Under the pieces are notes generated by a model. It was not told the DNA's origin. It saw nothing but the letters and a program-made list of their open reading frames with translations, and ran no database searches. The position numbers were made by a program, and so were the translations under genes. A DNA stretch of 64,000 nucleotides from Bradyrhizobium barranii subsp. apii (GTDB lineage Bacteria > Pseudomonadota > Alphaproteobacteria > Rhizobiales > Xanthobacteraceae), in assembly GCF_011516635.5 (NCBI RefSeq), contig NZ_CP096255.1, positions 1,054,001-1,118,000 on the forward strand, written 5' to 3'. Below, one piece after another: positions 7,348-10,913 of this stretch. Numbering within the stretch: position 1 is the stretch's first letter; each line of letters starts with the position of its first letter.

Positions 7348-8143
7348 GCATAGTTTTTTAGAAGGCGCGCTCACCAAGGCGGGATTGCTGAGCGCAAAGC
7401 GATGATCGACCGCGAGCACGATTTGTCGATCACCAGGCAAGCGGAAGTCTTGCAGATCAGCCGTGGCAGCGTCTATTACCTGCCGCGCCCGGTGTCGGAT
7501 GCCGATCTCGCGATCATGCGGCGTCTCGATCGGCTGCATCTGGAGTATCCTTTCGCCGGTTCGCGGATGTTGAGAGGCCTGCTGGCTGCCGATGGGTGCA
7601 AGGTCGGCCGCCGGCATGTCAAAACGCTGATGCGGCGGATGGGGATAGAAGCGCTCTATCGCCGTCCCCGGACCACGAAGACGGAGCCCGGCCACAAGAT
7701 CTATCCGTACCTGCTGCGCGGCATGGAGATCACGCGTCCGAACCAGGTCTGGGCGATGGACATCACTTACATCCCGATGCGCGCGGCTTCGTGTACCTCG
7801 CTGTCGTGCTCGATTGGGCTACCCGACGAGTATTGTCGTGGCGGTTGTCGATCACGATGGAAGCGGCCTTCTGCGTCGAGACCCTGGAGGATGCCTTGGC
7901 GCGGCACGGCCGGCCTGACGTCTTCAATACCGACCAGGGTTCGCAGTTCACCGGTGCGGCCTTCACCGCCGTGCTCGCCGGCCACGGCATCGCCATCAGC
8001 ATGGACGGCAAAGGGGCTTGGCGGGACAACGTGTTCGTCGAGCGGCTGTGGCGCAGCGTCAAGTACGAGGAGGTGTATCTGCGGGCGTACGAGACCGTCA
8101 GCGAGGCGCGCGACTCGATTGGCCGATATCTCGACTTCTACAA
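7348..8143 (+). pseudogene. IS3-family orfB transposase, frameshifted and 3'-truncated
   Basis: The frame reads LEGALTKAGLLSAKRMIDRE, then VYYLPRPVSDADLAIMRRLD, YPFAGSRM and NQVWAMDITYIPM, an IS3 orfB with the first catalytic Asp. At about 7780 one base is missing (GATGCGCGCGG where GATGGCGCGCGG is expected), and the rest (RGFVYLAVVLDWATRRVLSW, NTDQGSQFT, WRDNVFVERLWRSVKYEEVY) continues in another frame. Translation is finally cut at GRYLDFYN, where the serine-recombinase element starts. It is doubly inactivated, on top of being separated from orfA. Confidence 0.85.
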
Positions 8144-8167
8144 CCGCGCATCAGAACACCCATCTGT

Positions 8168-10237
8168 CTATGTTGTTGAAGAGAAGAGACTTTGCTGATT
8201 GGGATGCGATCCCGTGGGGTATCTTGGGTTCTGTCGCGCTCGTTCGGCGATAGATTGAGCGGCAGTTGTTATCAGCGAGGCGCGGGCGAAGATCCACGGG
8301 CCGTCCGACAGCGGATGGAAGGCTTCGATTTCGCCGGCTTCAGCGGCCAGCCGGAGCGTCTTGGGCGCGATCTTCAGGAGCTTTGCGGCGTTGCTAAGGT
8401 TGAGCCAGGGTTCGATCCCGTCATCGGCGGGCTTGAATACCGGGAGGTGGTAGCTCGAGCGCATTGATGTGACGCGCTCGCGGGTCCAGCGATTGCCGTT
8501 GCCCGTCTTGAGGCCGTTGCGGTTGAGGAGGCCGGCAATCAGATCGTCGCTGGCGATCAGCACCAGTTGACGCACGGCTTGGATAATATCGGCGGAAGTG
8601 CTGTTGCGCTGTCCGCGCCGGCGCTTGGGCAAGCGCAACTCGCTGTGAGCGCCACCCACCCAGTGGACGATGAGAACGATCTCGGACGCCGCGTCGTCTA
8701 TATCGGCCACGACCTCATGGACGAGGGTGCGTACAATGCGCTTCTTGAGACGAGCATCCGTCGTCGGCGCATCCCAGACCGTTTTGAGGTTCGAGGCCAG
8801 TACGCCGAGCGAAGCTGGATCAGCAATGGGTGCGGGCGTCGCCGCATCATGCATGGCGATCTTGCCCTCGACCTCCGCCGCGTGAGCGAGTGCCCTGTTC
8901 CAGCGCGCTTCCAGCTCACTCGCCACCAACCGGTTCGCGGGGTCAGCGGCATCGTATTGCCGGAAAGCCCGGTCGGCGGCATAGCGCGCCGCTTCCAGAT
9001 CGCGACTGAGCGCATCGCGCACCTGATCCCGCCGTTCCCTGGCTCCTTCGGCGGCAGCGGTTGCAGCGGCGATAGCGCCCGGACCGACGACGCCAAGCAG
9101 TGCGTCCTCGATTGCATCATCGACACGCAATCCGCCGAAGGCGATGCAGTGGGCCCCGCCATTGTCCATCCAGGCGCGGCTGCAGCTGTAGCGCGGGATA
9201 TGGTTTTCCATGCCGGAGTACCGGAGTGTGAGCTTGCGGCCGCAGCGCTTGCACCGGATCAGACCGGCCAGCAGCGCGTCCCCATGCTTGGGTGCGCCGT
9301 GATGCCGACCGGTGGGAACGTTGCTGCTGACCATGGTGCGGATCGCCTCGAACCTCTCCCAGCTCACATACCCGTCGTGGGTGTTGGGCATCAGCGCCAG
9401 CCATTCGTTCCGCGTCTTGCGGCGGATCTTCACGCTCACGCCCCCGGCGCTGTATCCCGCCGCCACAGCCGTCTTACCATAGGCATAGGCGCCGCCGTAG
9501 ACCGGGTTCTCAATGATCCGGTGGATGGCGGAGTAACTCGGTCGCCGCCAGGCTGTGTCGCCGTTGGACTGCTTCACTGGTAGATCGAGATTGTACTCGT
9601 GGAGCCAGCAGAGCGCCTGTCGCGCGCTGCCCAGTTCCTCGACCTTGTCGAACACCAGCTTGATCGCTTCCTGGACACGCCGATCCGGATCTTTCTCATA
9701 ACGGTCGCCGGCCTTCACGAAACCGACGGGCGCCGCCACAACCAACTCGCCCCGGCGCGCCTTCTCGTAGCGGGCCGAGAGCGAGCGTTGGCGCAACAAA
9801 TCCAGTTCGTACTCGTTGAGGCTGCCCTTGAGCCCGAGTAGCAGGCGATCGTTGCCGTGCCTCGGTGCATAGATCGTCTCCTGATCGACCAGAACGGTAT
9901 CGACCACGCGGCACATCTCGATGAGTTGCTGCCAATCCCGGCTGTTGCGGGCGAAGCGCGAGACCTCGCGGGCGCAAACCGCACCAACCTTACCGAGGCA
10001 AACCTCCGCTACCATTCGCTCGAAACCGGCGCGTTGCACGCCGCCGGCGGCTGAACGACCGAGATCATCATCGATCACTTCGATCTCTGACCACCCGAGT
10101 GCCGTCAGCCGGTCCCGCATGGCGTATTGCAATGCGCTGCTCTCGCGATTGTGCAACACCTGATGTGCTGAGGATTGGCGCACGTAAAGAATCGCCTTAC
10201 GCTCCAGATGATGAGGCCTGACCTTGTCAGAGATCAT
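8168..10237 (-). CDS. Large serine recombinase (689 aa)
   Basis: An N-terminal resolvase domain with YVRQSS (catalytic Ser about residue 22), the SREVSRFARNS-type motif and a Recombinase domain (residues ~190-290). A Cys-rich zinc ribbon follows (IRCKRCGRKLTLRYSG...YSCSR...HCI), then a coiled-coil-rich segment, and a C-terminal helix-turn-helix-like region (LSNAAKLLKIAPKTLRLAAEAGEIEAF). Proteins of this build integrate and excise DNA at short specific sites without host factors. Its ATG overlaps the stop of the 79-aa gene by 11 bases, implying translational coupling. It appears intact, so the element may still be mobile. Confidence 0.92.
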   Translation of the reverse strand: MISDKVRPHHLERKAILYVRQSSAHQVLHNRESSALQYAMRDRLTALGWSEIEVIDDDLGRSAAGGVQRAGFERMVAEVCLGKVGAVCAREVSRFARNSRDWQQLIEMCRVVDTVLVDQETIYAPRHGNDRLLLGLKGSLNEYELDLLRQRSLSARYEKARRGELVVAAPVGFVKAGDRYEKDPDRRVQEAIKLVFDKVEELGSARQALCWLHEYNLDLPVKQSNGDTAWRRPSYSAIHRIIENPVYGGAYAYGKTAVAAGYSAGGVSVKIRRKTRNEWLALMPNTHDGYVSWERFEAIRTMVSSNVPTGRHHGAPKHGDALLAGLIRCKRCGRKLTLRYSGMENHIPRYSCSRAWMDNGGAHCIAFGGLRVDDAIEDALLGVVGPGAIAAATAAAEGARERRDQVRDALSRDLEAARYAADRAFRQYDAADPANRLVASELEARWNRALAHAAEVEGKIAMHDAATPAPIADPASLGVLASNLKTVWDAPTTDARLKKRIVRTLVHEVVADIDDAASEIVLIVHWVGGAHSELRLPKRRRGQRNSTSADIIQAVRQLVLIASDDLIAGLLNRNGLKTGNGNRWTRERVTSMRSSYHLPVFKPADDGIEPWLNLSNAAKLLKIAPKTLRLAAEAGEIEAFHPLSDGPWIFARASLITTAAQSIAERARQNPRYPTGSHPNQQSLFSSTT

Positions 10238-10466
10238 GATCGACCCCCTTCGCGGGCGGCGTCGCTGTCATCGCAGCATGGTCGAGGATCAACTGCGTCA
10301 TCAGGCTTGTGAGGGCCGCCCGGGCTTCCGCCGGCAACTCCGGCCATGCTGGCGCGCGGATGGCGCCGTTCGGCAGGCCGCTCCCGAACAGATCCATCTG
10401 TTGCTGCGGCCGCGGTTGTCGATTGTGTCGGTATCCGCTCCCTGGCATTGCCGTCTGCCGTGACAT
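10227..10466 (-). CDS. Small protein upstream of the serine recombinase (79 aa)
   Basis: ATG at 10466 with GGGAGAG upstream; the stop overlaps the recombinase start by 11 bases. The N-terminal half is rich in Arg/Gln/Pro/Gly; the C-terminal half (PAEARAALTSLMTQLILDHAA) is helical. The position suggests an accessory or directionality protein for the recombinase, but nothing in the sequence proves it. The first ~17 residues also occur in the truncated copy at 29935, so the gene belongs to the mobile element. Confidence 0.65.
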   Translation of the reverse strand: MSRQTAMPGSGYRHNRQPRPQQQMDLFGSGLPNGAIRAPAWPELPAEARAALTSLMTQLILDHAAMTATPPAKGVDHDL

Positions 10467-10785
10467 GGGTCTCTCCCCGATTCTGGTCGTGAGAGGCTCT
10501 GGATGCGCTAGAAAGCAGGGCAGCTGATGGCGTTCGATCCATCAACACCAGATCGAGAAGCGCAGAAAGCGCTGCAAGTGCGGTTATGCTGACAAATGGC
10601 CGAGCTGCCAAAAGCTCCGCCTCAGGGCATGCCGTCCGGTCGAACATCCATGCTGGAACCTCCAGCCAACGATCTGCTTGCGATCCATCCAGTGTGCAGC
10701 GGAAGGCGACATCGCCAGCCTTGTCGACGGCCCCATGAACGCAAACTCGGCAACCAAACCAAGGATGATATCGATAAAGAACCAC
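10234..10785 (-). CDS. DUF5372-like protein of the serine-recombinase element
   Basis: From a GTG at 10785 the frame reads YRYHPWFGCRVCVHG, then LDGSQADRWLEVPAWMFD and FVSITALAALSALLDLVL. This resembles DUF5372 proteins, small proteins that accompany recombinases and transposases. The frame stays open beyond the usual family length (~100 aa) to 10234 and overlaps the 79-aa gene in another frame. The real end may therefore be a by-product of that overlap. The same N-terminal frame is kept in the partial copy at 29616-29992. Function unknown; the start is chosen by homology with the second copy. Confidence 0.55.
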   Translation of the reverse strand: MVLYRYHPWFGCRVCVHGAVDKAGDVAFRCTLDGSQADRWLEVPAWMFDRTACPEAELLAARPFVSITALAALSALLDLVLMDRTPSAALLSSASRASHDQNRGETHVTADGNARERIPTQSTTAAAATDGSVRERPAERRHPRASMAGVAGGSPGGPHKPDDAVDPRPCCDDSDAAREGGRS

Positions 10786-10823
10786 GCGAAGAGCGGTCCT
10801 GTGGGCGTTCTCAAACCTCGTTG

Positions 10824-10913
10824 TACAATGAAGATCGCCCGCATGGGGCAATCGGCAACAGACCGCCGATTTTACTGCACAACCGCGATGGCGCCACCAG
10901 CCCGCCATCGTGA
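10824..10913 (+). pseudogene. C-terminus of an IS3-family orfB (YNEDRPHGAIG type)
   Basis: The frame YNEDRPHGAIGNRPPILLHN and on to a TGA is the conserved C-terminal end of IS407/IS51-like IS3 transposases. It is not the expected continuation of the orfB at 7348-8143, whose subgroup normally reads RRPHSSLDG here. The upstream part of this transposase is absent; the serine-recombinase element occupies its place. IS3-type right-end sequence appears to continue to about 10985. Confidence 0.75.

Follow-up and report, generated by a model that had tools for sequence, protein, structure and literature searches.

The window analysed here, a 64,000-nucleotide stretch of Bradyrhizobium barranii subsp. 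apii DNA (contig NZ_CP096255.1, positions 1,054,001 to 1,118,000), contains a small mobile element with a gene for a large serine recombinase (LSR). The element very probably resides, as a type, in IS3-type transposase genes at the TA of Tyr-Asn codons, where its LSR is predicted to place it by recognising the DNA of neighbouring codons. Among 77 distinct two-ended copies of close relatives, 69 interrupt rve-type transposase genes at the Tyr-Asn codons and share one orientation, one (L041) is reversed, and seven are elsewhere (L006, L043, L075, L084, L102, L115 and L118), of which L084 keeps a transposase on its left. Chance placement is ruled out by the recurrence of one codon pair and one orientation in the 69 sites. 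From the sequence, we infer that the LSR is an active recombinase and that it places the element. A preliminary description had proposed the (L/F)YN codons of IS3 transposases as the attachment site. The position at Tyr-Asn codons holds for 70 of the 77 relatives, the reversed copy included, while the residue before the Tyr varies, the informative half of the site is downstream, at the Arg-Pro-His codons, and the targets include rve transposases possibly outside IS3. The earlier interpretation is supported in essence, and its scope was understated.

Junction readings place the element proper between two TA dinucleotides, at 8139-10825 (2,687 bp), a refinement of the previously given extent of 8136 to 10828. 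The left end reads ...CTCGACTTC-TA-CAAC-CGCGCATC-AGAACACCCA, with AGAACACCCA at 8153-8162, and the right end reads TGGGCGTTCT-CAAACCTC-GTTG-TA-CAATGAAGATCGCCC. The ends are inverted, with CAAC-N8-AGAACRCCCA running inwards from each TA. It had been noted that each end carries AGAAC(A/G)CCCA in inverse orientation, nine bases inside TACAA, and that TACAA coincides with the Tyr-Asn codons at both ends (DFYN and SLYN). Both observations were confirmed, except that "SL" in SLYN belongs to the element, the Tyr codon being the first of the transposase tail. The window copy is flanked on the left by a head ending in DF-Y, with a frame change near 7780, and on the right by a tail beginning with YNEDRPHGAIG. 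Head and tail derive from two different IS3-type genes, and the copy has therefore probably been rearranged.

Among named organisms, Bradyrhizobium has the recombinases nearest to that of the window. Close relatives were defined by at least 58% identity and were obtained from genome contigs (best 80 of 158 confirmed), a genus search, and fetched stretches. They were found in 67 of 265 genomes of the genus, and a class search with the window LSR at an E-value of 1e-150 had matches in 5 of 385 genomes; the close relatives therefore belong mainly to the genus. Mapping of the two ends succeeded in 97 locus strands, seven with flanks shorter than 30 bp were omitted, and identical 62-bp joints were merged to give the 77 distinct sites. 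At the 69 sites, the Tyr codon is followed in frame by (N/K/H)xx(R/H)x(H/P), the recombinase is antisense to the transposase, and the tail cut off by the insertion has a median length of 29 codons. Both halves are transposase-like at 59 of these sites in a similarity test, which a left half passes if it resembles two or more of the others. Inspected by eye, the ten failing left halves comprise three that look like transposase (L058, L077 and L087), three that do so in part (L045, L107 and L109), and four that do not (L044, L057, L086 and L154). The flanks of L057 and L154 both resemble transposase right halves, as expected from recombination of two inverted copies.

The interrupted transposases are diverse. 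The 62 left-flank peptides of sufficient length form 15 clusters at 50% identity, 27 at 70%, and 46 at 90%. Family scans covered 81 of the 92 distinct left flanks, after omission of 11 with an open frame shorter than 25 codons, and resulted in Pfam matches to rve_3 (59), rve (31), and rve_2 (12). NCBIfam matches of the same peptides were to IS3 (56), IS481 (46), IS30 (12), and IS21 (11); these matches overlap, so that single members are not cleanly assignable to one insertion sequence (IS) family, and in the one match displayed such a piece is below the whole-protein cut-off.

The junctions define the core of the exchange. The base after TA at the left junction is the element C in 67 of 69 sites, and the base before TA at the right junction is the element G in 68 of 69. 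Of the target bases, the one preceding TA is C in 49 sites, T in 17, and G in 3, and the one following it is C in 64 and T in 5; the five TAT targets (L036, L077, L092, L150 and L156) retain their T. Because TA alone is common to both junctions, the overlap is 2 bp. Judged from the junction sequences, this central overlap, with no target duplication beyond it, is as expected of a serine recombinase. Among the collected loci, an uninterrupted match of at least 80% identity was found for 15 of the 77 joined sites, of at least 90% for four, and of at least 95% for none; a smaller locus set gave 9 of 77. The best match, L145 with L269, is 93.9% identical over 230 bp without gaps. Plasmid searches with two left flanks returned 4 and 19 records, all below 95% identity. 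The alignment of homologue junctions that had been proposed as a check of the preliminary description thus mostly resulted in transposases split at the Tyr-Asn codons, with empty sites for some of them. It is extremely unlikely that an IS transposase or homologous recombination, and not the LSR, places the element: the composite of IS and element seems to move with the IS, and hybrid flanks indicate recombination between copies, but the 2-bp overlap without gain or loss of bases is the trace of a serine recombinase, no homology beyond TA is needed, and target choice tracks the LSR tree.

The consensus of the 69 sites, TA-(C/T)AA(C/T)-N6-CGNCCNCA(T/C), corresponds to the codons of Y-N-x-x-R-P-H. 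It is strong on the right and weak on the left, and the C and A of the His codon are conserved in 100% of the sites. In exact form, TAYAAYN6CGNCCNCAY occurs 12 times in the 10.58-Mb genome, always in an orfB tail encoding YNxxRPH, and five of the 12 are occupied, at element ends; the reversed control has 0 matches. The right halves of the seven other sites were scored against those of 1,478 random TA sites drawn from the flanks of the same sites: L006, L075, and L115 rank in the top 0.07%, L043 (reversed) in the top 0.2%, and L084 in the top 0.9%. Junctions in unrelated sequence had been named beforehand as evidence against the proposed attachment site, and they do occur at these seven sites; four of the seven (L006, L075, L115 and L043) still resemble the half-site, and it is therefore likely that DNA is recognised. 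An alternative is that the element inserts at many TA sites and persists only in dispensable transposase genes. The seven insertions elsewhere and the likely dispensability of transposase genes agree with it, but selection is not expected to favour a single codon pair in a single orientation, the exact motif is limited to orfB tails in this genome, and the four other sites are half-site-like, so that survivor bias of this kind is very improbable. With the half-site likeness as the main evidence, DNA, and not survival, likely sets the insertion site.

Several observations weigh against placement by DNA recognition of the LSR. The left half of the putative attB is weakly conserved. The seven sites outside Tyr-Asn codons include L102, which ranks at best in the top 5%, and L118, which scores as chance, and the control sites share their origin with the sites that were tested. 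The left flanks of L044, L057, L086, and L154 (4 of 69) are not transposase-like, and together with the hybrid window copy they indicate that many copies are rearranged. The central dinucleotide sets the polarity of LSRs, and TA is palindromic, yet the orientations are 69 to 1; the dinucleotide rule does not explain this bias, which may originate from selection on orientation. A search for the joined attP pattern in viral contigs had 0 matches, and no circle junction was found there.

In the proposed mechanism, the element would leave as a circle with its ends joined into attP, which, deduced from the two ends, would be an inverted repeat that has GTTG-TA-CAAC at its centre and AGAACRCCCA in both arms. 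The recombinase would pair attP with attB in orfB, TA-(C/T)AA(C/T)-N6-CGNCCNCA(C/T), a consensus that is observed and a recognition that is predicted. Putative cleavage with the 2-bp TA overlap observed at the junctions would join attP and attB; as observed, the insertion separates the last stretch of the transposase. A single DNA specificity could provide many targets, likely dispensable to the host, because many rve transposases conserve this codon block, which in this genome has exact matches only there. We infer the circular form, the roles of the small open reading frames ORF1 and ORF2, and the dispensability of the targets. The block CGCCCACA of attB is repeated in the right arm of the element, 6 bp further from the core. 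Displaced zinc-domain motifs are present in other LSRs, and the displacement seen here may be analogous.

The genome of the window contains 19 matches to the LSR, including four full copies at 100% and two at 83% identity, the others being fragments or distant, and 13 matches to the region upstream of the LSR. The copies have constant ends and differing flanks. The truncated second copy in the window, previously noted at 29573-29992, was confirmed: it opens with the same element end, has its TA at 29576-29577, and is joined to the tail of a third orfB, which also reads YNTTRRHSTIGYLSP. The genome has three copies of the IS3 orfB head beside L001, all accompanied by the element or a remnant of it (the remnant at L016), which supports the earlier proposal that the element spreads with IS elements. 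The homology of L001 and L003 extends over 3,894 bp and ends within 3 bp of the IS3 ends, with differences at 2 of 3,795 positions in the head and element and at 11 of 96 in the tails. L003 has a 3-bp duplication, GTC, and L001 is without a matching duplication. The ends of the host IS3 are TGATCT.../...GCTCA; the IS3 family traits tested were an rve-type orfB, TG...CA ends, and a 3-4 bp target duplication. These features fit the movement of an IS3 with its passenger element, followed by recombination between copies, although the three may also be independent insertions into identical IS copies. Judged from the three copies, an occupied IS can apparently still move and take the element along.

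Such movement raises the possibility that one ancient insertion into one IS3 gave rise to a composite from which all copies descend by IS transposition and recombination, the position being a matter of ancestry. The three copies of one head, all with the element or a remnant, the ends of homology close to the IS ends, and the often hybrid flanks agree with common descent. However, this history is highly improbable given the 15 clusters of flanking transposases at 50% identity, the uninterrupted relatives of several of them, and the related LSRs at other motifs in other gene families.

Placement by the LSR at DNA encoding a protein motif is probably not limited to the close relatives: the same strategy appears to have evolved in related LSRs, with other mobile-element genes as the targets. 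The wider clade consists of LSRs about 35-45% identical to that of the window, found in 29 of 265 genomes of the genus (E-value 1e-200), 11 of 385 of the class, 11 of 398 of the phylum, and 445 plasmid records, from which eight regions were read, chosen for diversity and not at random. After the omission of close relatives and of loci with a missing C-terminus or a short flank, 56 distinct loci were kept, of which three have no frame of 60 aa. Targets of single loci were assigned by eye among the matches listed. IS21 IstB is broken at residues 105-108, in the Walker A loop, in 22 of the 23 rows listed, refetched loci included; L233 differs. The breaks in IS66 TnpC are mostly near residue 460 (near 444 in L014 and 472 in L228), and those in IS66 TnpB are at 51-58, 67, or about 97. 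The cut is at Pfam position 155 of 172 in each of four tyrosine recombinases and at position 79 of 205 in both of two group II intron reverse transcriptases. Other targets assigned by eye are IstA (L229 and L234), IS4 (L225), IS110 (L236), IS91 (L261), and another LSR (L223). The element of L223 is inside the second LSR gene, with the resolvase part in one flank and the Recombinase and zinc-ribbon parts in the other.

An unguided scan of 135 frames adjoining the 3' end of the 56 loci, counted per reading frame and not per locus, resulted in Pfam matches to IstB (13), IS66 transposase (10, and 2 by its C-terminal element), IS66 TnpB (4), rve (3), and reverse transcriptase (2), with one match each to IS91, DDE_Tnp_1, IS110, and resolvase. 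Outside mobile elements, it found an M15 peptidase (possibly of a phage), a nucleoside hydrolase, and single AAA, HTH_17, nSTAND3, and Tax matches. The main families agree in the NCBIfam scan of the same frames. At L240, L241, L242, L246, and L259, no mobile-element gene was recognised at the 3' end. Mobile-element targeting in the wider clade is strong and not universal. Two side observations concern nested elements: L170 contains two related LSR elements head to tail (1546-6107), adjoining a target of the tyrosine-recombinase type, and in L174 two elements with facing ends share one IS66 TnpC site.

Target choice follows the LSR phylogeny. In a phylogeny of 66 LSRs with 59 labelled rows, the 16 target states are explained by 15 changes, the minimum possible, whereas 200 label shuffles need at least 31 (mean 36.6), for a tree built by a quick method with several long branches, labels that are the author's reading, and near-identical LSRs that inflate the contrast. 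L249 is labelled "other", although its upstream flank is IS66 TnpB like that of its sister L230, and L213 and L225 are without a full LSR. The LSR has likely evolved to land on the most conserved parts of selfish genes. It is probable that small LSR elements across a broad clade act as hyperparasites of selfish genes, each lineage being adapted to the DNA that encodes a near-invariant protein motif, with motif switches during evolution. The motifs would be Y-N-x-x-R-P-H of rve transposases, Walker A of IstB, and blocks in IstA and in IS66 TnpB and TnpC, and the other genes would be those of tyrosine recombinases, IS110, IS4, and IS91 transposases, group II intron reverse transcriptases, and other LSRs.

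If correct, this explains how so small an integrating element can combine site specificity with a multi-copy state, with a target codon block kept constant by protein function in abundant, dispensable genes. Because these LSRs form a natural series, connected by a phylogeny and differing in their well-defined target motifs, they would make the rewriting of LSR specificity directly testable, which has practical weight for genome engineering. The elements would also exert pressure on IS elements by transposase inactivation and by recombination between nested copies, a pressure hidden by annotation as "recombinase family protein" and broken transposases.

The integrases of phiC31 and Bxb1 use a single or few chromosomal sites, have attP and attB of different sequence, and belong to elements that carry phage genes. 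The window element shares with them the domain order, the 2-bp overlap, and attP and attB that differ in sequence, whereas it is 2.7 kb long, multi-copy, and aimed at mobile-element genes. Prophage phiRv1 of Mycobacterium is an LSR element that integrates into one repeat family of its genome; the target is repeated here as well, but it is a protein motif that gives many transposase families a common site. Some group II introns and homing endonucleases have IS or conserved genes as their targets and act by RNA-guided retrohoming or as endonucleases. They are likewise second-order parasites on plentiful conserved sequence, with a serine recombinase in their place here. The window protein has the arrangement of an LSR, with an N-terminal resolvase-type catalytic domain followed by a Recombinase domain and a zinc ribbon. 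Staphylococcal Ccr and XisF were rejected as candidates, with NCBIfam bits of 86.8 against 375 for XisF, 36.9 against 700 for CcrA, 30 against 900 for CcrB, and 21.5 against 900 for CcrC. The window LSR has no DUF4368 domain at an E-value of 0.001, in contrast to TndX/DUF4368 multi-targeting LSRs.

According to the portions available, IS607-type serine transposases also move small elements, but have an N-terminal DNA-binding domain and minimal target specificity (PMC4058570, PMC6188088); the window recombinase differs from them in its N-terminal catalytic domain, starting at residue 15, and its specific target. Multi-targeting LSRs, as defined in the accessible part of Durrant et al. 2022 (PMC10083194), belong to a clade that mostly carries DUF4368, and the example given there has a TT core, AT-rich target DNA, and relaxed specificity. 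The systems are alike in that LSR elements occupy many sites in many genes; the elements described here have a TA core and targets that share one protein motif. Among the papers listed by full-text searches of open-access PubMed Central, which does not cover subscription papers and preprints, no title or abstract start describes LSRs with transposase motifs as attachment sites, and the available portions of PMC3925955 and PMC13137831 contain nothing on such use.

Table 1. Features of the element and its flanks, in positions of the window.
Feature	Position	Strand	Basis or remark
5' part of IS3-type orfB	7402..8138	+	HTH_21 and rve domains, two frames; stops at DF before the Tyr codon
Left TA, core common to the left junction (attL)	8139..8140	.	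Sequence reading; overlap deduced from 69 relatives
Left element arm CAAC-N8-AGAACACCCA, one half of predicted attP	8141..8162	+	Constant in relatives
LSR, 689 aa	8168..10237	-	Resolvase, Recombinase, and zinc ribbon domains
ORF2, 79 aa	10227..10466	-	Overlaps the recombinase start; no family match
ORF1, predicted from GTG at 10785	10470..10785	-	3' end provisional, frame open to 10234
Right element arm, CAAC-N8-AGAACGCCCA inwards, other half of predicted attP	10802..10823	-	Constant in relatives
Right TA, core common to the right junction (attR)	10824..10825	.	Sequence reading; junction comparison
3' tail of a different IS3-type orfB, YNEDRPHGAIGNRPPILLHNRDGATSPPS	10824..10913	+	Frame reading, relatives
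Third orfB tail, YNTTRRHSTIGYLSPVEFE	29500..29577 (start approximate)	-	Joined to the second copy at the Tyr-Asn codons
Truncated second copy, right-end portion of the element	29576..29995	+	100% identical over 423 bp

The domains of the window LSR are Resolvase (residues 15-164), Recombinase (189-305), and Zn_ribbon_recom (322-379), all above cut-off, and its closest solved relative is YokA. A small open reading frame adjoins the LSR in 63 of 64 relatives. Profile scans of ORF1 and ORF2 found no Pfam or NCBIfam family, and the 51 homologues of ORF1 are all hypothetical or unnamed. ORF1 is a conserved protein with an HP...G...WM pattern. Among close relatives, 16 of 20 have its motif upstream of the LSR, as do 27 of 44 relatives in the wider clade, compared with 0 of 63 controls. 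ORF1 is a candidate accessory or directionality factor, and ORF2 is likewise a candidate for the latter function.

A stretch of repeated "ccgacttgaagccggcc"-like units cuts off element copies or IS3 heads at window positions 29995-30100, at 1950-2060 of L263, and in the head of L004. The stretch is probably the end of an IS21-type element.

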